This document shows, in pieces, positions 17,022 to 59,800 of a DNA stretch of 64,000 bases (positions are counted from its first letter, which is position 1; each line of letters opens with the position of its first letter). The DNA is taken from the NCBI GenBank assembly GCA_963966185.1, contig CAWZYM010000448.1, forward strand, positions 114,922 to 178,921, written 5' to 3'. A program made the position numbers and the translations under genes. This DNA comes from Rhabditoides inermis. Its lineage: Eukaryota > Nematoda > Chromadorea > Rhabditida > Rhabditidae. Under the pieces are notes generated by a model that was given only the letters and a program-made list of their open reading frames with translations, searched no databases and had not been told where the DNA came from.

Positions 17022-17392
17022 GTCGCCCTTCCACACCCCGCCCACCGAGGCCCCGCCCCCACCCGGCATCTCCACCCCGCGGGTCACACACTCTGTTTGT
17101 TCTTGTTAGGAGTTAGTACCCTCCCCATTCTCTCTATTGTTGCATTGTGTTATCATCTGATGATAAGGCTAATCATTTCCTCCCGATGAACCGAGAAGCC
17201 TTGTCGCCCCCTCCCATTGTCTGATTACCAACATGTTGTTGATAGTATGTAGTTATGATGTACATTGATGTATTCGCCTCTTGTAAGTTACTCTGATTGT
17301 GTGTAATATGAACATGTGTTTCGTAACAGTTTGGAATATTAATAAACACTAAAGGAAGTTTTGAACGATTTATTATTTGAAGGTTTTGAAGA

Positions 17393-18109
17393 TTAGTTGG
17401 CTTTGGCGAGGCCGAGGGTTCCAGACTGGAATGGGGGTGATATTCTCCGTCTCTCTGTCTCTCTTTCTCTCTTTCCCTGTCTCTCTTTCCCTGTCTCTCT
17501 CTCTCTGTCTCTTTCTCTCCCCTCTCCCTCCCTCTCTCTCCCTCTCTCTCCACCTTGAAGTCGTGGGCGACGCAGTACTCGCGGAAGAGAGGAGGTCCGA
17601 TCATCCACTGCGGATAGAAACCGCCTCCCTGAACGTTCATTTGTTCATTTGTGTTTCATGTTTGTTGACTGACCTGCATGGGGAAGAAGGCGAACTGGCA
17701 TGGTCCGGGGCCCACCTGTAGTGTGAGGGTGAGGGAGAGGAAGATGAGGGAGAGAATGGCGATGACAGGGAAAAAGAGAGGCAAAAGGAGATTCAAGAGA
17801 AGTACGTCGTCTGGTCCTCACCGATATGATGTAGTTCTTGGCTGAGATGCGGTACGTCTTGGCATTGATGGTGAGTGTGATATCGGGGGTGTTCGCATCG
17901 CAGTCCATGAAGTATCCCTGGTACTGGTTGTTGAACGTCGCGCCCACGCTTAACACATGTCACGTCACTACTTGCAAACTTATAATGATCAATTAATCAA
18001 TAATTGTTCCCGAACACTCACGCGGCGGCTAGCTTTGCGACGTAGGCGGTGGGGCCGCCGATGTAGGTGGAAGCGGAGTTGGTGATGGCAGTCCAGCCCT
18101 GCGAGCACA

Positions 18110-18159
<50 letters not shown>

Positions 18160-19377
18160 CCTCTATGCTCACCTTAGACTGCGACTGTTGGTACGATCCG
18201 ACGCCGAAGCTGAATATATTCTATGTAATCAAGGATGGCGTAAGGAGTCCGATCCACCGTACTTCTACAGTCACCGGAACTCCATATATACCGTACCCCT
18301 GAAGGGTGAACTGCCAGAAGGTCTTCGAGGTGAGCGGGATGATGTCATACTGGCCGGCGCAGTTGTCGTGGTCGTAGCTGGAACGGAGGCAATCGATAAT
18401 TGATAGGCGGGACTGATAGAGGAGGGATTGAGAGAGAGAGAGAGAGAGAAAAAAAAAGAGGGGGAGAGAGAGGGAGACGCACCCTCCGAAGGTGAGCTGT
18501 CCTCCGTTGGCAGAGATCTGCTGACCGACGTTCTTCATGAAGATGGTGAAAATGGCCTCAACACGATATTGATAAACAATCTATACTTATCAATTAAACA
18601 ATAAATCAATACCGTACATTCTGCATGGTTCCCTGCTGGAAGGCGGACCAGATGGGAGAGATGTAGTGGTTGTAGGCGAGAGAGGGAAAGGCGAGTCCGA
18701 GAATACCGTCCATAGGCTGCAATCGTATTCATCACTTCAGTCATTTCCATATCAACTCCCGAAAACTGTGCGTTGAGGGATTCCTTCATGTGTGATACTC
18801 ATAATTCAGGTTCACTCAGTGAGTAATCCACTCTGTAATCGTGAATACAATACATCGGTGTTGGCTGTTCGACTGCGTATGAGTGTCACCTGTGCTCCGA
18901 AGTCTGCCCCCATGGAAGTCGCCTGACCGAAGATCTGCTTCTGCGCGCACACTGTCGTGTTCGCCACCTAAAATACACCACTACGCAAATGTAAGGCTAA
19001 ATATTGTCTTTTGAATTTGGCAGGAAGTAGTAGATATGAGAACACTGGTGTGAAAGACTCACGCAGACGGTGTCGACTCCATAGAAGCCCTTCACGTTGC
19101 CCGTCTGGTAGGTGATGTCGAAGACGGTGCCTGGAGTGATGTGGGATGTGGAGGATAGAAAACGGAGAGAGAGAGGGGGAGAGAGATAGAGAGAGGGAGA
19201 GAGAGAGAGAGGGGTGGACTGACCGTTCTTCTGATAGGTGGTGGAGGTGGTATTCTTGAAGCGGTTCTTTGTCGCGCACGGGTTCGCAGTGGGCAGACTG
19301 AGTGATTGATCATTGATCTCTCTTATTTCTTGCATCTCCCTTTCTTTCAATTTCCCCACTCCTCCCTACCTACTCCT

Positions 19378-19444
<67 letters not shown>

Positions 19445-20237
19445 AATTTCTCCTCTGTCCCCCTCTCCACTCACACCGACTGGCTCTTCTTGCAGCAGGT
19501 CGGAGCGCAGAATGCAACGCAAGCATCGTACGAGGTCTGCATGGTATATGGTAGTTAGGAAACTGCACTGCGATATTTTATGGTACCTGTCCACAGTAGT
19601 CTCCGCATTGGTGGCCGCTGCCAGCAGCGCAGCTCTCGTCAGCAACCTGCATTGAGTTATAGATCCCATATTCAATCGATATTCTGTCGATTCACTAACC
19701 CAGAAGTTGCTGGATCCAGTGTCGATGAAAGTTACAAACTGCTGAGCCGGAGTTCCGACCGTCATATAACCTGCGGGTATTTATTTCTTCATTTTATTTT
19801 CTTGATCACTTTTGCATTTTTTTTCGACGTTCACACATTTCGAAGAATCTTTGAAATACTCTGTTTGTTTTTCTTGGTCGTGATTAGATTAGAAGGATTT
19901 TCAAATTTCGTGAAGAACAAGAAGGAGGATAGTGACATCGAGTGTATCGAGTGAGATTCACGATGGCATACGATACAGTGATAACATTTGCTCCGCGATA
20001 AGGTTTTCTAGACGAGATAATCTAGCTGAAAGTAATTGAACTCTATGGCTTGGCGCTTGGAACATGATAAACGGATGGTTCAATGATGGATTTTTTTTAA
20101 ATCATTTTAAAATTAATTATGAATTATGACTCACTGAAGTAGGCGAGGTCGTCAAGGTCGAGCATGGACAGCTTTCCCGTAGCCAACTCGGAGTTCTGAA
20201 AATGGGAGGGAAGAGTGAGAGGTGGTAGGGGTGAAAT

Positions 20238-20281
<44 letters not shown>

Positions 20282-20455
20282 CGCACCTTGTCCATCTTCT
20301 CTGCCTTCTCCTTGAGGTATGCCTCCAGCTTGCCCTCTGCGTACATTTGCTGCTTGAGTGACGGCCGATGACTGAATGCATTCACCTGTATGTCTGTCTC
20401 CCGCTCTCCCTACCACATATCCCCTTCTCTCGCGTCACTCTGCCTCTTTAAATCA

Positions 20456-20504
<49 letters not shown>

Positions 20505-20590
20505 CCTCCTCTCACTCCTCACCCGATCGGTACTCTGACGACTGCAGCTGTACAGCCGATTGCGACCGCAAGCAAGAGAAGACACCTCAT
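17393..20590 (-). CDS. secreted aspartyl-protease-like protein lacking the second catalytic Asp, 18 exons, 423 aa
   Basis: Pepsin-family (A1) fold, similar to nematode ASP proteins. The 18 exons run from 20523-20590 to 17393-17425 and sum to 1272 bases in phase. Signal peptide MRCLLLLAVAIGCTAA is followed by a propeptide start VVRVPIG. The first active-site motif is intact (FIDTGSSNFW, exon 19700-19770), as are a Cys-rich insert (DESCAAGSGHQCGDYCG) and a flap region (NVKGFYGVDTVC). At the second active site (exon 18022-18098) the sequence reads AITNSASTYIGGP where active family members have DTGTS, so Asp, Thr and Gly are all replaced. The late ILGD-type motif reads WMIGPPLFREYC, with Asp again lost. 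It ends GTLGLAKAN, like the family C-terminus. I infer a secreted, catalytically inactive homologue, perhaps binding or structural. The reading frame is otherwise intact, so it is not an obvious pseudogene. Confidence 0.9.
18112..18156. repeat. (TC)n microsatellite in an intron
   Basis: A pure TC run of about 44 bases between protease exons 18173-18209 and 18022-18098. Similar long runs lie at 19384-19442, 20232-20276 (GA) and 20458-20500. Confidence 0.9.
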
Positions 20591-22274: not shown

Positions 22275-22390
22275 ATGGAGCGGCAGTCGCGTTGTCGCAT
22301 CCCGCGACCGACCCCGCCCTCTCACTTCTCCACTCCCATCCCTGCCGCCCACAAGGTACCTTCGTTTCTCTCTCCCTTTCTCTCTCCCTT

Positions 22391-22433
<43 letters not shown>

Positions 22434-22713
22434 GTCGATCTCCTCTTTTGTAGAGTTTCATCCAGTCGTCGGCGCCGTCCGCCCCCACCCGCCTCGACCT
22501 GAGAATCAAGCGAGTTGTCTTGCTGTGCTTGCACGAATCCTCAATGATTGGTACGTGTTTGCAGCCCGACCGACTGCACGGTCGCCGAGCTCAGCAGGTG
22601 GGTGGAGCGTGTGTGTAGGCACGAGTTCGCCACCTACCCGACGGCCGCGCTGCTCGTCATCTACCAGTGGGTCACTCTTTTCCTCCCTCTCTTCCCTTCT
22701 CACAATATCTTCA

Positions 22714-22761
<48 letters not shown>

Positions 22762-23311
22762 CAGAGCGGAGGTACCGATGGATCACCGATATCCGTGGAA
22801 TATCATTGTCAAGCGCGCCCTCAAGAAGAACAACATGAACGTGGGTACTGTTTAATCTATCGGATACGGTACGATACCGTAACCTAGAGACACTGGTGTA
22901 ACTAGGGACATCGGGAATATGGGGAGTTTGCATGGGTGAGTAGCGGTTGTATTTGAGGTATTCTTCCACACCTTCGTTCTCCACGCGGCACTCTCTCGCA
23001 TTCTGCCTCCATTCGACGGTCTGCCACTCTCGGAGGAAACCCGCCACAAGATCAGAATGCTCGAGGCGCGGATGTACAAGATTGGGGTATGTCAGGGAGA
23101 GAGAGGGGGGAGAGACAGAGAGAGATAAAGAGAAAGAGAGAGAGAGGGGGGGGGGGAGAGGGGGGAGGAGGAGAAGAGGTAGAAGAAAGGGGAGAACGAA
23201 AGAAATACGAATGATCAATCACTCAGTCTGCCCACTGCGAACCCGTGCGCGACAAAGAACCGCTTCAAGAATACCACCGCCACCACATATCAGAAGAACG
23301 GTCAGTCCACC

Positions 23312-23359
<48 letters not shown>

Positions 23360-24782
23360 TATCTCTCTCTCTCTCTATTACCTATGCTACAGAACCTAGT
23401 TTGAGGGAGATGGTGCTTTCATAGAATTCTAGTATTCGATTTTTCAAATTCATTCATTTTCGCAGTACTTTCGGCGTAAAACCTCGAAATTTCTCCAATT
23501 TGCATTAAAAATCTTGTCATTGCGCCACCCCTTGCCTTGTTGATTTGCCTGTCTGTGCTGTTAGCATCCCTCTCCCCCCTTCCCTCTCTTCCCTCCGTCA
23601 TTTCCCTCTCTCCCCCTCTCCCCTTCCCTCTCATCCCTCCGTCATTCCCCTCCCCTCTCCCCTCTCATTCCCCATTCCTTCTCCCATGCCGGACGGTTCC
23701 CCCAACGTCATGATCCTCGATCGAGGCAGCGGAGGCGGGTACGTCACGCGGACAAACACCCAAACAGACACGTAGACAGGACGTAAGGGGGCAGAAGAAC
23801 AATGTTTATGAGAGTGTAGTGTGATAGTGGTAGTGAACCCGAGACCAGCGAACCGTGTGGCTACTGAGGGAGTGCTTTGAGTGGTGCCCCGACGACTGTG
23901 GTTGGGGGAGGCAGCGACCACACCCTCCTCATCCTACTCCTCCTCGCTCTCCTCGGAGCAATGGCCTACTACCAGGTACGGCACACTCTACTCGCCTACC
24001 CTGTGATCTTTTCAGACGCAGCTCAACAAGCCGGCATCCAAGTGAGTGGGCTATCCGAGATCGGGATGTGTTTCATGTTTATCTAATCTCTCTCTCTCTC
24101 CCTCTCCCTCTTTCTCTCTCCTCCTCTCTCCCTCTCTCTCTCCCTCTCCCCCTCTCCCTCTCTCTCTCTCTCTCTATAATATGAATGGGTGGTTGCAGGC
24201 CGCGGAAGCACCACCATCACAGGCACCACCACAAGCACCACAAGCACCACAAGAAGGAGAACCACGCACACACCATGGTCAAGGTGTGTAGTAGGGGAGG
24301 GGGCGATTGGACCTGGGTTCCCCGATTACTCTGTCCTTGTACGTTCTCTCTCATTTTAAGTGAACAGAGTGAGCTGCTAAAACTGTACATAGGAGCATAG
24401 GAGGTTTTGATGTATTCGTCCCTTTTTCAGGTTCCCGTGGTCCCCGAAGTTGCGAAGCCAGCCGATCCGGATCCAGCTGCCACCCAGATCAAGGTTGTCT
24501 GTTCGTGTTACTGTATGCTACCGTATCCTCACATACCGTACACCTAGGTGGAGCTGTCTGGGGAGAACAAGTCTGACAAGCGCATCAACGTTCCCGCCGC
24601 GATGATTGCCAACATGCCGGTCGGACAGCCCGTTCAGGTATACGGTAGCTAGGATTTGACGATACGGTACTTTGAATTCATTTCACGATAGGTTGAATTT
24701 GGGATATGGCATTTCGAAATTCATAGGTTTTGAAATAAACTATAATTTAAATATGTTTTAGGTGAACATCAAGCCGAACTAA
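22275..24782 (+). CDS. unknown protein with one membrane segment and a His-rich stretch, 12 exons, about 356 aa from this start
   Basis: I do not recognise the family. Exons: 22275-22355, 22454-22509, 22565-22666, 22765-22840, 22958-23086, 23227-23300, 23565-23738, 23882-23975, 24016-24041, 24199-24283, 24431-24493, 24548-24637 and 24762-24782. They sum to 1071 bases in phase only if 23227-23300 is included. The first half is globular (TDCTVAELSRWVERVCRHEF; MDHRYPWNIIVKRALKKNN; HAALSRILPPFDGLPLSEE). A Pro/Ser-rich linker follows, then a hydrophobic segment (HTLLILLLLALLGAMAYY), a His/Lys-rich run (24199-24283) and a short C-terminal part ending VNIKPN. One intron (22510-22564) appears to use a GC donor (GCGAGT). 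The start is uncertain: exon 22217-22355 is open upstream of the ATG behind an acceptor-like CGCAG, so earlier exons may exist. An alternative is two genes, with the second starting at the ATG at 23686. Confidence 0.6.
23210..23315 (+). repeat. near-identical copy of protease exon 7 and its splice sites
   Basis: The 74 bases 23227-23300 match protease exon 19224-19297 (minus strand) with two differences that I can see. The match runs on into the upstream intron (GATCAATCACTCAG) and the downstream intron (GTCAGTCCACCCCT) and then enters CT repeats in both places. The two copies are in opposite orientation on the chromosome, about 4 kb apart. Confidence 0.95.
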
Positions 24783-25545
24783 GGTCGCCGCAAGCTCTCG
24801 AGAAGAAGAAATCACTAGACTAGACATCCCAACCCCGCTTAAATTATTAGTATTAGTAACAATGAGAGATTAAATGTGATATGCGTTGTTTTCTCTACAT
24901 CGAAGGGGTGGTGAATACATCCTTACACCAAAGTGCCTTCTGCGAACATTTCCACGGGAATGAGGGAGAGAGAGAGGGAGATATATTTCTCACCCACTGT
25001 CCTCTCTCCCACCGATATTTTCAATCGATCTATCCAATTGACTATCGTCGGTTGACTGAAATGCGTGTCAGATACCCCGGAAAGTCGAATGACAACATGT
25101 TCTGTTGTGTGAGTTCTCCCTTGTCCAGCCTCCCTGCCGCCGCACAGCGTTCATTTTGCGCCAGTTTGTGTTGTTGACAGATGGGGTGAGTGGACGAAAC
25201 CCAGTCGGGAGTGGGAGGTGTCCGATGCACCGGAAAGACTTCTTTGATTCGGTTGCGGCTCCTCCTATCCATTTACAGTTTGAATTGCGCGGTCTAATTT
25301 TCTACAGTAATCCGCGAAACTATAGTTTCGAATAATATTATAATCAAGATCCGTGTCTGGGGTAGTGAAAGAGAACCCGCGCCATGTAAAATCCAAATTG
25401 ATCGAGGTGTTTTGTGCAAACTACATTCACGGAATTAAAAAAGAAACGAAGATCACAAGATCAGCCGATCAAAAAGCAGTTTTATCGGCAGTGCAAAAAC
25501 AAAACAAATCTCAAAAAGAAGAAAATCTCGGTGAAAGAAAGGCAG
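24783..25545. other. intergenic between two convergent genes
   Basis: The plus-strand gene ends at 24782 and the minus-strand reductase at 25546. AT-rich sequence and a short GA run lie between them. The Lys-rich frame at 25353-25604 overlaps the last reductase exon on the other strand and is not supported. Confidence 0.5.
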
Positions 25546-28424: not shown

Positions 28425-29300
28425 GCTAAATCACGGATACACATCTTTTTCTGGAGTGAGAGAGAAAGAGAGAGGGGGAGTGTCTGCGGGACGGAGTTGC
28501 GCCAAGGGTGGACGGTGAAGCCATGTGGATTCGATGAGAGACTGCCGAGGTTGAGCTCTTCAGAGGCATGCGACGTAGGAGTGAGTGGGAGTGGCAGCAA
28601 TGTGCAGATGTCGATGAGTGGGTGATGTGCTGCATAGATGAGAAGAGTGTTCGGTGGTCGTTCGGGTGAATCCACTTGCCTCCCACGCATAATCCAGAGG
28701 ATTGGTGCACGATCAGTGAATGGTCGGTGAATCGGCTTGGAGGAATGGTACCCCGAAGGGAATGCGGCGCGAAGAGCTGGTCAAGTACACGACACTTTGC
28801 TGCTATTTGAGTATCTTTTTCTTTTTCTTGAAGACAATCGGTGATCCATGACCATGATCCAAACGGGCTCGTCTAGAGGACTGGTCGTAATCTATCGAAT
28901 CGTATTTTCGACTATAAAAGGTTTAATTCCAAAATAAAATACAACATTCGCTATACGCTATACGCGGCAACAGTGCGTAGCGTGAGATGGCTGATTTCGA
29001 ATTAGCATGCGCGGACTGAATGGGAGAGGTAGAGGGGCGCTGCGCACTCCATTCCACCTCTACAGACTACGTGCAAGTCGAAAGGCTGTACATCCAGGAG
29101 GGCAGGCATGCCGAACCAAAAGACGCGCAGGTACGAGAGTGTGGTTGGTGACAACTTGTTTGTGAATATAGTGACTACTACCTGTCGAATGACCCCTTGC
29201 GACCATTTCCAACCGAATGGACAGAATGGAGACAAAGCCCCTCGAGTCTCTGTTGAGCTACAGAGTCATAACGATGAATCGATCTATGCAACTGAATAAT
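28425..29300. mobile_element. dispersed repeat, copy A
   Basis: Sequence shared with 40740-42030 in the same orientation. Matching blocks include GGTGGACGGTGAAGCCATGTGG (28506 and 41051), ACACGACACTTTGCTGCTATTTGA (28789 and 41370), GGTGATCCATGACCATGATCC (28840 and 41432) and GAGATGGCTGATTTCGAATTAGC (28983 and 41758). No long open frame or family motif is seen, so I call it a non-autonomous element or a fragment. Small insertions and deletions separate the two copies. Confidence 0.75.
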
Positions 29301-30284: not shown

Positions 30285-31588
30285 ACCGGCTGAACTCAAT
30301 CTGGCACCAAATAGGCGGATTTCGAAAATTCAAATTGATCATATCTCCTTCCAATCAAAAGATAACCCAATACAATCACATATGTACAGTCTTCTAATAA
30401 TGAGATCTACAACATGGGACCATTTCTGACAAGTTATCTTGAAAATGACATGTTTTTACTGTTTTTGAACTTCTTTTGAATGATTCAGTTTTATTTTTTA
30501 ATGTATGTTATTTGGAATTGTAAAGTGGTTCTTTTTTCATCGTTAATTCATGTACTAGAATACAATCGTGAGCATATTTCTCACGAAGTCACGTGTATAA
30601 GGAATTAGTGTGGCTACCGTAACCGTAGCCTGTCTGTCCTCTGTTACCGTAGGCTACGGTACTATCACCGTATCAACAACGAGCCTCACTGCATACCCTG
30701 AGGTATTGCTACGATATGCGAATCCAATTATCAAGATCATGTGCGTGGTGATTGGTGAAGGCATAAAAGGACTCACTGCGACACATACTATAATCACAAT
30801 GTCAACTCCTACTGTACCCCCTCACCTCCATATTCCTACCCACAATCTCCTATCTTCTTCTCAGAAGAAGAGATATATTATCATCTACCCATCCGTGAAG
30901 AACCCCGGCGACTGTATTCAGTTCCGGTACTACCGAGGAAACCAGAATGGAGCGCGCTATCGTTGCAATGATTGCTCCAAGGTAAGCAATAGGAGGACAC
31001 AGGTAAGCAAATGCTCCAAGGTAAGCAAAATCCATCGACGACTTGATGAGGTTTCTCCGCGCAGAGGTCCTCAACGTGTTCAGGCAGTCCTCCGGCTGGC
31101 TGCACCGCCACATCCCGCCGCACTCCAACACTCGGGCCAAGCGCATCGCCATTCTCGTCAACATCGCCAACAGGCAGCGTCAGTTTGTCGCCCTCACTTC
31201 CCAGTCTTGCACTCGCGTTCGTCTTCTCACCTTCCTCGACTATATGACTCGTTTCCAGAAATCTACCACCAAGTAGACTTATATTATTGTACATATTGTT
31301 GTTTTGTATTGTTGTTTTGTTTTGTTTCTTGTTATGTCTTGTTGTTTATCATAGGCATTTATACTGGCTGAATTCACCTTTGTTGAATACTTGAAATAAA
31401 GTTGAAATAAATTTTAGAGATGTTCATTTTGAGAGATCACTGATCGAAAATGGTCCCATGTTGTAGATCTCATGATTAGAAGACTGTACATATGTGATTG
31501 TATGGGGTTATCTTTTGATTGGACAGAGATATGATCAATTTAAATTTTTGAAGTTCGCCTATTTGGTGCCAGATTGAGTTCAGCCGGT
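30285..31588. mobile_element. 1.3 kb element with terminal inverted repeats of about 143 bases
   Basis: The segment 30285-30428 (ACCGGCTGAACTCAATCTGG ... ACAACATGGGACCATTT) occurs as its reverse complement at 31444-31588 with roughly 90% identity by eye. Both outer ends begin ACCGGCTGAAC. The structure fits a DNA transposon, but no transposase motif or target-site duplication could be confirmed. The interior has coding-like sequence (next entry) and an AATAAA at 31395. Confidence 0.75.
30865..31276 (+). CDS. possible cargo reading frames inside the inverted-repeat element
   Basis: Exon-like 30865-30981 lies between a CTCAG acceptor and a GTAAGC donor, is 39 codons long, and reads KKRYIIIYPSVKNPGDCIQF then RYYRGNQNGARYRCNDCSK. 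The CxxC after Tyr/Arg-rich sequence could be half a zinc finger. A second, GC-rich frame, open from about 31046 to the stop at 31274-31276, reads EVLNVFRQSSGWLHRHIPPH and ends LLTFLDYMTRFQKSTTK. The phase between the two does not match through the best acceptor (31064), so they may be separate or one may be decayed. I recognise neither family. Confidence 0.35.
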
Positions 31589-40739: not shown

Positions 40740-42030
40740 TTATCTTTTTCTGGATGGGCATGGCGTCCAGCCGGGGAGAGGGAGAGGGAGAGAGAGAGAG
40801 AGAGTCTGCGGGATGGAGTTGCGCCAAGCTCAGGAAAATAGTGGCAGTGCTGCCGCAGGAACACGGTGTTCCTGCCAAAAAAGGGGCGGGGCCAATGATT
40901 TTGATTAGTGGAGCTTATTTCTATGATGACCTGACTCTCGCGCGATCAACACACTCTCGCACTGAATAACATGCGAAGTGACGTCACTTTTCTTGTTCCT
41001 GCCGCAGGAACACCGTGTTCCTGCGGCAGCCCTGCCACTTTTTGCTATGAGGGTGGACGGTGAAGCCATGTGGATTCGATGAGAGACTGCCGAGGTTGAG
41101 CTCTTCAGAGGCATGCGACGTAGGAGTGAGTGGGAGTGGCAGCAATGTGCAGATGTCGATGAGTGGGTGATGTGATGCATCGGGTGAATCCACTTGCCTC
41201 CCACGCATAATCCAGTGAGGGTTGGTGCACGATCAGTGAATGGTCGGTGAATCGGCTTGGAGGGATGGTACCCCGCAGGGAATGCGGCGGCACACTCGAC
41301 ACGGAGACAGATCATCCGAGTTTGAGAGATTCGTGGCGTTGACAGACCCATGAGAAGAGCTCGTCACGTACACGACACTTTGCTGCTATTTGAATCACTT
41401 TTTCTTCTTCTTGAAGACAAGGTTGTTTATCGGTGATCCATGACCATGATCCAAACGGGCTCGTATCTAGATTAGAGGATCTATCTAATCGTATTTCGAC
41501 TGTAAACGGTTCTATACCAAAATACAACCCTCGCCCCCCCCCCCCGTAGTATGGTGGACAGCACGGCTACAGTTACAGTACCCTATTTTCGGCATACAGT
41601 CGATACAGTCGACTGTATGCCGAAAATATTGTACGAGTAAGCTGACAGTGTCTTATTCCCACTTCGGATACCGTCTGCAACATGTCTAGCATGTGATGGT
41701 TATTGATTCCGGCAGGGATCAATGGGAATAATCGATACGCAGCAGCAGTGCGTATTGTGAGATGGCTGATTTCGAATTAGCATGCGCTCAGTGCGAGAAG
41801 GGGGGAGGAGCAATTAGCGCCGCCGCTCACACTCCTCGAACTATCCGAATGTCGTGTAGGCTGCAGATCCAGGAGGGCAGACATGCGGATCCAAGAGAAG
41901 CACAGGTACGAGCATTGTGATTGGTGTCTACTTGTTTGTGAGTATTGTGACAACTTACCTCTGCAACCCGACCATGCCCTATGTTGAGCTACAGAGTACA
42001 TAATCATAGCTTAGCGGAATTTATCTATAC
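40740..42030. mobile_element. dispersed repeat, copy B, with nested insertion
   Basis: Second copy of the repeat at 28425-29300. It is longer because of a nested insertion (40829-41051) and extra sequence at 41282-41345 and 41521-41745. No coding capacity is seen. Confidence 0.75.
40829..41051. mobile_element. 222-base inverted-repeat insertion (MITE-like) with palindromic ends
   Basis: Copy A lacks this segment, so it shows the empty site (GTTGCGCCAAG followed by GGTGGACGG near 28505). The left end CTCAGGAAAATAGTGGCAGTGC and the reverse-complemented right end CTCATAGCAAAAAGTGGCAGGGC match. Both are followed by GCTGCCGCAGGAACACGGTG. The right arm itself contains a perfect palindrome with 15-base arms (40999-41029, CTGCCGCAGGAACAC). 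Confidence 0.75.
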
Positions 42031-49071: not shown

Positions 49072-49230
49072 TTGCACGATTACGAAGTTGTATGATTTCA
49101 TGATGTTATAGATAGTGTTGTTATATTATGTTTTCCGTTGTTAACATTTTTGGTTATCTTGTCTGTACAATGCGATTTGTTTTCATGATGATAAAAAAAC
49201 TGATCAAAAATGCACTTCGCAAACATAAAC
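49072..49230. other. 3' side of the transposase-like gene
   Basis: AT-rich, likely 3' untranslated sequence of the gene ending at 49071. It runs directly into the 171-base tandem repeat. Confidence 0.4.
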
Positions 49231-50070
49231 GCCACTGACAGCGTTGGGGAGAGGACAGATTTGTGAAAAGTAGGGGAGAGCGATGCGAATGCGGTTTCCG
49301 GGACTCGAAAGTAGACATATGGAATAGAAAAAGTCCATAGAGTGTGTAGTTCCAGGCTCGACGGTTGTCTCATAGCGGACCCCTTGGTCTGGGTGCGCGG
49401 CGCCACTGACAGCGTTGGGGAGAGGACAGATTTGTGAAAAGTAGGGGAGAGCGATGCGAATGCGGTTTCCGGGACTCGAAAGTAGACATATGGAATAGAA
49501 AAAGTCCATAGAGTGTGTAGTTCCAGACTCGACGGTTGTCTCATAGCGGACCCCTTGGTCTGGGTGCGCGGCGCCACTGACAGCGTTGGGGAGAGGACAG
49601 ATTTGTGAAAAGTAGGGGAGAGCGATGCGAATGCGGTTTCCGGGACTCGAAAGTAGACATATGGAATAGAAAAAGTCCATAGAGTGTGTAGTTCCAGGCT
49701 CGACGGTTGTCTCATAGCGGACCCCTTGGTCTGGGTGCGCGGCGCCACTGACAGCGTTGGGGAGAGGACAGATTTGTGAAAAGTAGGGGAGAGCGATGCG
49801 AATGCGGTTTCCGGGACTCGAAAGTAGACATATGGAATAGAAAAAGTCCATAGAGTGTGTAGTTCCAGGCTCGACGGTTGTCTCATAGCGGACCCCTTGG
49901 TCTGGGTGCGCGGCGCCACTGACAGCGTTGGGGAGAGGACAGATTTGTGAAAAGTAGGGGAGAGCGATGCGAATGCGGTTTCCGGGACTCGAAAGTAGAC
50001 ATATGGAATAGAAAAAGTCCATAGAGTGTGTAGTTCCAGACTCGACGGTTGTCTCATAGCGGACCCCTAC
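49231..50070. repeat. 171-base tandem repeat, 4.9 copies
   Basis: Copies start at 49231, 49402, 49573, 49744 and 49915, each exactly 171 bases after the last (GCCACTGACAGCGTTGGGG at each start). They differ at only one or two sites, for example G or A in TTCCA(G/A)GCTCGACGG-type position, with A in copies 2 and 5. Because 171 is 57 codons, two minus-strand frames stay open across the whole array (298 and 319 codons). Their codons have no family similarity, so I treat them as a by-product of the repeat. Confidence 0.95.
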
Positions 50071-56800: not shown

Positions 56801-59800
56801 CTCCCTCTCACCCTCTCACCTTTTCTTCTTTTGTCAACAGCAGAGCCTGCTTCTGAGTGAACTGAGCTTGCACCACCTGAAAATATAGAAAAAAAAATCA
56901 ATGATTGAACGTCTCACACATTTCCTAAATGCTGGCTGACTCACCGTCCTCCTCCGGAGAAAGTGACCAGCGAGGAAGAAATGCGCCGGCTCGGGGGTCG
57001 AAGAGACTGCCTACAACACACAATCACAGTCTCCTCTCCTCCACACCTCTCCACTTATAGATCCATTTCCATTTAATTGAATTAACCTATTATCTTATAC
57101 CTATCGGCTACCGTACCCCGTACCTGTGATCCTCTCTCCTGTGCGCGATAGAACACCTCACCGCGACTGCGATCAAAGTAGATCAAGAGCTGGAAGAGGA
57201 TTCTTTTTTAGTTTGGATAAATATTAAATTTGAGTATATATCTACCGTCTTTATTATTATAACTATAACACTTTACGGTATCGACTTGTAAATTGACAGA
57301 ATTAAAAATGATTATATTTACAGTCTTTTGAAAAATTCATGAAACATGTTTGGTGCCAAATATATTTGAAACCAGCATTTAAAAGAAACTATATTTTAGA
57401 ACCACTGATTTTTTCAATGCAACAAAATGCGCTCACCTTCATCTTCTCATCGACCGCAATACTCGTCTCCTCTACTGGAGCGAGAGAGGACAGAGGGTGG
57501 AGGGAGCGGGAGGAGACTGCAACAAGTTCGAGTAGACATCATGCACGATACACACTTTATTGCAATTGTAGCAGCTCCAGAGCGTTTTATAATTGTTGAA
57601 ACAATGTATACACAACGTATACACGATTCGAAACATTAAACAACACAACATAAACGAAACGAAACAAACGCTTGCGCACCTCTCCACGAGCTGCATCGCT
57701 GATCAACGAGGCGGGACAGAGAGACCAGCTGACTCTGAAATCAGTCATATTAAATCAAAACATCTCTAGAACAAAACAAAGGACATATTACTGTGTTGCA
57801 CAAATTCAGATAATATAGCGAGAACATGAAACGTAGAAATGTAAAGTTCGCTGAACGGTTAAAAATTTGTAGCGTTATATAACCGCCTAATACCATAAAT
57901 GTACGTTTGAGTCGACATTAATCTCATTTACCCCTCTGCCCCCCCCCCTCACGTACCTTTCTATACCCTCCTGTTCCATCTCCAAACGCGCTCGCATCTC
58001 CCATAACACCCATCATCACTAGACCGCCCGGACCACTGAAATGGAATGTATACTCACGTTCCGTTCATCTTTCAGTGCGCAGTGCGGACAACGAGCAGTT
58101 GGATGGAATGAGAGCAAATGACTCACTCAAACTGGTGTACGAAGTAGGAGCAGCCGTCGAGGGCCAGCACTGCGTACACCTCCAAGCATACAGTCAGTCA
58201 CAACAACACAATCAATAACACGCAATAGAGTGATCACAAAGAAAACGCGAATTTGGATCAAGTGGTTTCGACTCCTAGCATCTTACCACTTGAGCCTTCC
58301 ATCAACCCGGAGTCTCATCAGAGATGAAGTTGATGGAAAAGTGTTCACTACGAATGTTCGATATGGGGGGAAATAACAGACAAATTAATGTTTCGTAATA
58401 GGGAAATAAGTGGGCAGGAATAGGGGACGGACAACGTATTAGGATGGTGGGGAGAGAGCGGCAGGCTGCGATCAGTGAATGCGGTCGAATGAGGCAAGTG
58501 CGCGAGACGACTGATAAGCGGGGTGGGCAGAGCATTCGAGAACGAGTGAGAGAAAATGCGCGGAAGAGTGTGGTGGGTAGATCGCTTTGGGTAGATCAGA
58601 ATTGCGAGAGCATAGTTTACTGATTCCGAAGTGACTTCCATCTAGCCAGTGACAAAATTGATGAATTCCATGAAATTACGTTTTGTATGCAAATTGTATT
58701 TGGTTTTGAGAACATTATTAGAAAGAACCGAATTAGATAGTCGCAATTTCACGTGCGAACGATTATGAGCATTACTAATATACGTTTCGAAAAGTTGTTT
58801 GCAACGTTCTTTAAAGTCTTCAAATTTCGAACAACAACGGAAGATTCGCAGTAGTTCTCCATGTAAACAATTGTATGATACATTCAACGATATATTACTA
58901 TTTGCATGTGGAAAACGAACCACATGAAAATTGTAATAGTCAGTTTTATTGTACAGTTTAGTTATGAACTTGTTGTTATCTAAGTGAATGTTCAAATCCA
59001 GAAAGACTGTTTTATTTGGATCTGTATTTGTTTGTTCAAGAGTAAGTGAGCTATGGTAAATATCATTTTGTAGTTTGTTGATTATGCTGTTTTCATTATA
59101 AATAACAAGAATATCGTCCATATATCTGAAGCAATTTAACTGTTTATGTTTAAGGTATTCAATGTTTTGTTTACAGAATTTATATTCCATGAAGCTCAGA
59201 GTTAGGTCAGCTATCATAGGCGATGCGTTATTTCCTTGCGGAATTCCAGAAATTTGTTTAAAAAGGTTACTTCCGTATTTCGCAAAACTGTTTTCTAAAA
59301 CAAATTCAATGAGATATTTCACATCGTTTTTATCGTAATAGTTGTGTTTGATTTCTTGACTATTATTAGTATAGAACACATTTTTATAAGTTGTACAGAT
59401 GTATTCTTGTTTACTATTCTTAAAACAGAGTTCAATTAGTTCGAAAAGGTTTTGTTTCACAATAGAATGAGGCTAATTTGTGAACAAGCTACTAAAATCG
59501 GCAGTGAATATTTTCATATCCGATCTATTTTGAGTCATTTTGAGTTTGTGTATGACTTCCAAACTGTTATTTATTGACCAGTACATGTTCGTTCCGAAAC
59601 GTTCCGAGATTACATTGCAATATCTTTTAAAGTGTGTTTTTACGAATGATAGTATTCTTTGGAGCTCTATCGAAATCTGTTTCAAACTGCTATTATATGC
59701 TCCAGTAATGAATCGAAATTTAATTGGCGTTTTGTGCATCTTTGGGATTGCATAAATTTTAGGCAGTACTTGTTGATCAGTAGTTGTAGTTAATTTGTTA

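Follow-up and report, generated by a model that had tools for sequence, protein, structure and literature searches.

A protease exon has been copied, together with both of its splice sites, into the 3′ part of an unrelated neighbouring gene, at the place where the paralogue of that gene has its ending. Within the window (the whole stretch of 64,000 nucleotides that was analysed), the copied tract includes the complete 74-base exon 7 of an aspartic protease gene with its acceptor and donor, and lies between the fifth exon of the recipient, gene 1, and a further small gene downstream, gene 2 (Table 1). The account that we favour, in which the protease exon was copied into the 3′ end of gene 1, where it may provide a new tail, and gene 2 is an independent gene, is probably correct as a whole, and the copied tract itself is almost certainly real.

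Table 1. Coordinates of the genes, the copied tract and its surroundings in the window.
Feature	Position	Strand	Details
Protease gene	17391..20590	-	18-exon model, 424 aa, no stops; spliced model, Pfam and protein search
Template, exon 7 of the protease	19224..19297	-	phase 2 in, phase 1 out (VLPTANPCATKNRFKNTTSTTYQKNG)
Gene 1	22275..23086	+	148 aa, phase 0 end; gene model aligned to C384
Gene 1 exons	22275-22355, 22454-22509 (GC donor), 22565-22666, 22765-22840, 22958-23086	+	
GA-rich left flank	23094..23209	+	weaker likeness to protease intron
Copied tract	23210..23314	+	103/105 to 19314-19210, BLASTN
Copied exon, 74 nt	23227..23300	+	acceptor TCAATCACTCAG, donor GTCAGT; phase 0 entry would read SAHCEPVRDKEPLQEYHRHHISEE
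CT-rich right flank	23315..23375	+	protease intron has the same kind of tract
Short block common to the window and C384	23380..23407	+	by eye, ACCTATGCTACAG..AACCTAGTTTGAGGG; C384 has 7 more bases
ATTAAA	23504..23509	+	sole AATAAA/ATTAAA within 23087-23700
Region 5′ of the gene 2 ATG	23526..23685	+	156/160 identical to C384
Gene 2	23686..24782	+	143 aa; splice combination matching C384, picked from many
Gene 2 exons	23686-23738, 23882-23975, 24016-24041, 24199-24283, 24431-24493, 24548-24637, 24762-24782	+	

A BLASTN search of the window aligned the copied tract to the other strand of the protease locus with an E value of 1e-48, and the same match had an E value of 8e-43 in the whole genome (172.6 Mb). 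The initial annotation had reported that the 74-base protease exon is repeated with two differences and both splice sites, and this is borne out: the copied exon departs from exon 7 (19297–19224 on the minus strand) at positions 23279 and 23287 alone, and beyond the exon 17 nt on the 5′ side and 14 nt on the 3′ side are the same as in the template. The sense orientation of the copy within gene 1 was also correctly described, although template and copy, 3.9 kb apart, are inverted relative to each other in the DNA. A genome-wide DNA search found the template and the copy as the sole matching places (both candidates scored), as did a genome-wide search for a 29-base pattern with up to three mismatches; a 51-base core with up to three mismatches had two matches in the window and none in 100 shuffled sequences. 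The match between copy and template is not due to chance. A genome search with the protease exons gave at least 283 matches (40 of 3096 candidates scored), and among the matches listed those beyond the protease gene and the copy appear simple-repeat-like, judged from their query positions.

The near-identical exon is common to two unrelated genes, gene 1 having no Pfam match and the protease belonging to the Asp family. In the reading frame of the protease, one of the two changes replaces Ser155 with Ala in the copy and the other is silent, while in the frame proposed for gene 1 both are nonsynonymous (Leu to Arg and Leu to Ile). Selection cannot be read from two changes in either frame.

The source gene encodes a protein in which the Pfam domain Asp (PF00026) spans residues 70–423 with an E value of 1.2e-62, identifying it as an A1 aspartic protease; the first half of the protein, according to the spliced model, contains the sequence DTGS, which we take to be the catalytic motif. 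A protein search returned 76 matches, of which the top-scoring are nematode aspartic proteases, with the best match in Mesorhabditis spiculigera (51%). For the segment encoded by exon 7, the protease was aligned with seven nematode proteases picked from these 76 matches; the segment was found in 7/7 of them, and C144, K147, F150, S155, T157 and Y158 are identical in all eight rows. Since the exon segment is present in all seven aligned nematode relatives, the protease gene is the source of the copy. The spliced model also shows that the protease uses a frame of the exon different from that proposed for gene 1, as had been claimed.

The gene 1 exon preceding the copy ends at 23086 in phase 0, in agreement with the initial annotation. 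Intron 2 of the model (22509/22510) has an apparent GC donor, CAA/GCGAGT, in a weak context, where the C384 paralogue has GT; it may represent a GC–AG intron or an early stage of decay. Two other ends of exon 2 were rejected: 22513 throws exon 3 out of frame, and at 22476 the donor is weak by eye, while the GC at 22509 aligns with the GT of C384.

The paralogue on C384 (L023, minus strand) shares 69 of 139 amino acids with gene 1 (dN 0.50, dS 1.25); the dN/dS ratio is about 0.4, as a pairwise value not split by branch, and all five exons of gene 1 are open. It consists of six exons encoding 159 aa, and its protein ends with SKLPPL followed by a stop; the terminal acceptor scores 6.2 in the splice model described below, and an AATAAA is located 143 bases past the start of the last exon. 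The stop codon TGA, however, sits in CTGTGAGT, overlapping a possible GTGAGT donor with a score of 3.3, the use of which would make a 17-base exon leaving in phase 2, the phase needed for a fused reading with gene 2. At the place corresponding to the copy, no protease-like exon was seen in C384, and the genome searches gave two copies only; the comparison covers this one genome, and the recipient may originally have lacked the exon.

In a search with the GC-donor model, no relatives of gene 1 outside this genome were found among 117 candidates at E <= 1, in a collection that includes nematode proteins. Pfam gave nothing above the cut-off for gene 1 (with exon 2 extending to 22476), gene 2 or the bridge between them, the best result for gene 2 being ZrgA, whose 18.9 bits fall short of the required 27.4. 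A protein search with the fused model, in which exon 2 of gene 1 also ended at 22476, found no match at E 0.01 among the 7998 candidates sharing the most words, a result that is weak for gene 2. Genome searches with both halves of the fused model showed that C384 holds gene 1 and gene 2, and C395 the second half only.

The initial annotation regarded 22.3–24.8 kb as a single gene, in which the copied exon bridges gene 1 to the exons of a membrane protein through the junctions 23086/23227 and 23300/23565. Several of its observations hold. The phases fit and both sides are open; an exon entered in phase 2 at 23565 does keep the frame of the membrane-segment protein, the copied exon is 74 bases long, and the coding lengths of 1071 with it and 997 without it agree with a hand sum of exon lengths. 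The possible GTGAGT donor of the C384 terminal exon, which also leaves phase 2, points in the same direction, and the loss of a 3′ end with splicing into a downstream gene is a known route to read-through fusions. Nevertheless, the paralogues on C384 and C395 point to two genes. On C395 (L024), gene 2 stands alone: it begins with MPAETPNVLILDRG, an in-frame stop precedes its ATG by 72 nt, and the stop of an unrelated gene lies 164 nt upstream. On C384, gene 1 terminates at a stop codon of its own, which overlaps the possible donor noted above and is followed by AATAAA, and gene 2 has its own ATG about 960 bases past the gene 1 ending. A separate gene starting at 23686 had been named in advance as a refutation of the single-gene reading, and the stand-alone gene 2 on C395 and the gene 1 stop with AATAAA on C384 are evidence that 23686 is an independent gene start. 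From these comparisons, gene 2 is very probably a separate gene.

The agreement of frames adds little to the case for fusion. That the copied exon has no stop when read in phase 0 is true but carries little weight, all three of its frames being open; among 20000 composition shuffles of the copy, a given frame is open in about 49% and all three in 8%. The stretch 23565–23685 is nearly pure pyrimidine and free of stops in all three frames, so its openness proves nothing, and a phase match is expected by chance one time in three. The acceptor at 23565 is not among the sites of at least 2 bits in the splice model, where the training minimum is 3.7. Divisibility by three consequently says little, and a single gene running from gene 1 through the copied exon into gene 2 is unlikely.

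The gene 2 protein is small, with a single hydrophobic stretch (by eye) and a His-rich stretch. It is identical to its C384 counterpart at 135 of 142 amino acids, with a dS of 0.086. Strong likeness between the window and C384 begins at 23526, and over 23526–24889, compared with L023, gene 2 has a dS of 0.09 but the adjoining gene 1 has 1.25. Gene conversion between the two loci from near 23526 would explain the likeness of gene 2; the last three introns, which are 56–75% alike as compared with 84–100% for the first three, do not fit a single simple conversion tract. The window also has, at 58209–58308, 100 bases with 92% identity to a stretch near gene 2 of C395 (L024), perhaps a dispersed repeat.

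Gene conversion could also be proposed for the copied exon itself, if gene 1 had already possessed a related exon that was then overwritten by the protease sequence. Such a process is plausible for neighbouring gene 2, given the two dS values, but the corresponding place in C384 is without a protease-like exon, only two copies were found in the genome, and gene 1 had no Pfam match, while the protease belongs to a known family. It is very improbable that the copy arose in this way.

The sequences around the copy were compared with the two related loci. Past exon 5, likeness to C384 extends over the donor GTATGTCAG together with a GA-rich tract, and to the right of the presumably replaced stretch a short C384-like block starts at 23380 (ACCTATGCTACAG). 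Where C384 has the ending of gene 1, the window has the protease exon between GA- and CT-rich tracts, and a BLASTN search with the sense strand at E <= 1e-3 gave no window match to a C384-type gene 1 ending. In C384, the terminal exon and 3′ sequence come first in the interval between exon 5 and gene 2, and a dispersed repeat of roughly 330 bp (L023 3235–2906) follows them. A genome search with this C384 interval, with 40 of its 521 candidates scored, listed 41 matches of 75–87% identity beyond the locus itself; all of these start at query position 351 or beyond and nearly all lie over the repeat, so that the first part is likely unique in the genome. The ending could have been either replaced by the copy or lost in a separate step.

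The protease introns beside exon 7 carry GA- and CT-type tracts like those around the copy. In the self-comparison of the window (E <= 1e-6, low-complexity masking, with matches consisting of at least 75% GA, AG, CT, TC, GG and CC dinucleotides dropped), positions 23094–23359 aligned with 19439–19165 with 84% identity. When the left flank was compared with the protease intron at four lengths, the controls that did as well numbered 1/144, 4/138, 3/116 and 3/102, these controls being purine-rich pieces of the same window with both loci still included. A relationship of the left flank to the protease intron is suggested by these figures; its alignment contains a 7-base gap and several differences. 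Since the match runs out in GA/CT tracts on either side and the likeness of the left flank is suggestive only, the joints cannot be placed exactly.

The position of both match ends in simple-sequence tracts is also what would be found if reads mis-joined in GA/CT repeats had duplicated the protease exon in the assembly. However, the two substitutions in the exon and the 7-base gap and differences in the left flank are unexpected of a purely technical copy, and the sequence to the left and right of the copy can be aligned to the C384 locus. An assembly artefact of this kind is very improbable.

The possible use of the copied exon was evaluated with a small local splice model whose training set consisted of 35 introns predicted at the loci studied here, the two introns flanking the template exon being left out; its scores are rough. 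The lowest scores in the training set were 3.7 for acceptors and 1.4 for donors, and the introns were 40–364 nt long. The copy has an acceptor score of 3.5 and a donor score of 6.1, identical to those of the template, and the intron from exon 5 of gene 1 to the copy would measure 140 nt, inside the training range. As the acceptor and donor of the copy are both complete, splicing of exon 5 to 23227 may well occur, and use of the copied exon by gene 1 is plausible from its sequence. The acceptor score, on the other hand, is just under the training minimum, and stronger acceptors downstream of the copy, 8.1 at 23406 and 4.7 at 23466, could serve instead. On balance, the chance that the copied exon is spliced into gene 1 transcripts appears slightly short of even. 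Of four predicted continuations through the copy, three come to a stop nearby, for total lengths of 178, 186 and 213 residues, and one enters gene 2.

An alternative with a substantial, although less than even, chance of being right is that the copy is inert, representing a templated insertion in intron or 3′ sequence that is skipped, or one that lies in a decaying gene 1. This is consistent with the weakness of the copy acceptor relative to 23406 and 23466, with the GC in place of GT in intron 2 and with the search of the window in which no C384-type terminal exon was found; the three variants tried that skip the copy all reach a stop, at 156, 173 and 221 residues, as does unspliced reading past exon 5, at 161. 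At the same time, the five exons of gene 1 have stayed open despite a dS above 1 relative to C384 and with a dN/dS of about 0.4, and the splice signals of the copy are the same as those of its template, which argues against an inert copy.

In the account that we favour, at least about 105 bp of the protease gene, with exon 7 and both splice sites included, would have been recently copied in a repair or replication event. The target would be the 3′ part of gene 1, at a distance of about 4 kb and in inverted orientation, the joints falling in GA- and CT-rich tracts common to both places. The C384-type terminal exon and the 3′ region of gene 1 would have been lost at the target. Exon 5 of gene 1 would then splice to 23227, and the exon would be read in a frame unused by the protease, so that gene 1 would gain a tail that starts with SAHCEPVRDKEPLQEYHRHHISEE and soon meets a stop, ahead of gene 2, which would remain an independent gene. 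Of the exon shuffling event proposed in the initial annotation, the recent move of a protease exon and its splice sites into the neighbouring gene is supported, and its reading in a new frame is possible, but the extension into gene 2 is not supported. The GC donor in intron 2 counts against our account, since it may be a sign of decay in the window's gene 1, and the GTGAGT donor in C384 keeps a fused reading possible there. One could further hypothesise that introns rich in (GA)n/(CT)n make exons of this genome movable cassettes through repair between such tracts, the ending of the orphan gene 1 having been swapped in this way for protease sequence read in a new frame, but we consider this improbable.

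Among the publications listed in the literature searches, none named this locus in its title or the start of its abstract. Orphan genes of Pristionchus have been described as arising by partial exon duplication, frame change and gene splitting (Prabh and Rodelsperger 2019, PMC6643871), and the present case appears to be a close parallel to the chimeric and mixed-origin orphans among them, with exon gain by partial duplication, a change of gene structure and a non-ancestral frame. It differs from the Pristionchus orphans in that a single internal exon was copied with both splice sites and 2/105 bases changed, in that the copy sits where the paralogue has its ending, and in that genomic sequence is the sole evidence.

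As regards mechanism, mutation clusters are known to arise through template switching between nearby sequences (PMC7954356). The local and inverted template and the missing target sequence resemble short-range template switching (PMC7954356) and microhomology-mediated break-induced replication (MMBIR, PMC2621351), while the distance of about 4 kb and the location of the joints in long GA/CT tracts, where their exact position is lost, are unlike them. A process of this general type may have acted here, and the copying could have removed the former ending.

The annotation of two genes as one has precedents. A study of P. pacificus annotation named artificial fusions, along with orphan genes lacking support, as the most common errors (PMC7552371), and the single-gene reading resembles such artificial fusions in nematodes and helminths, where adjoining small genes are taken as one (PMC7552371, PMC12964723); unlike those cases, the fusion here came from a first reading of the sequence and not from an annotation. 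Phase matches in stop-poor, pyrimidine-rich sequence can mimic gene fusions and call for caution. The locus is a very fresh case, with 2/105 changes, in which the source, the target and a copy-free paralogue of the target can all be compared, and the steps of exon gain in a new frame are directly testable with RNA data and sister species.

Other repeated sequences were noted elsewhere in the window. A tandem array with a 171-base period and copies about 99.5% identical occupies 49230–50068. Several pieces of 28505–29183 match 41050–41960, about 12 kb away, with 76–88% identity, perhaps reflecting a duplicated gene or element, and 30285–30487 recurs in inverted orientation 0.9 kb away at 31384–31588 (about 205 bases, 86% alike).
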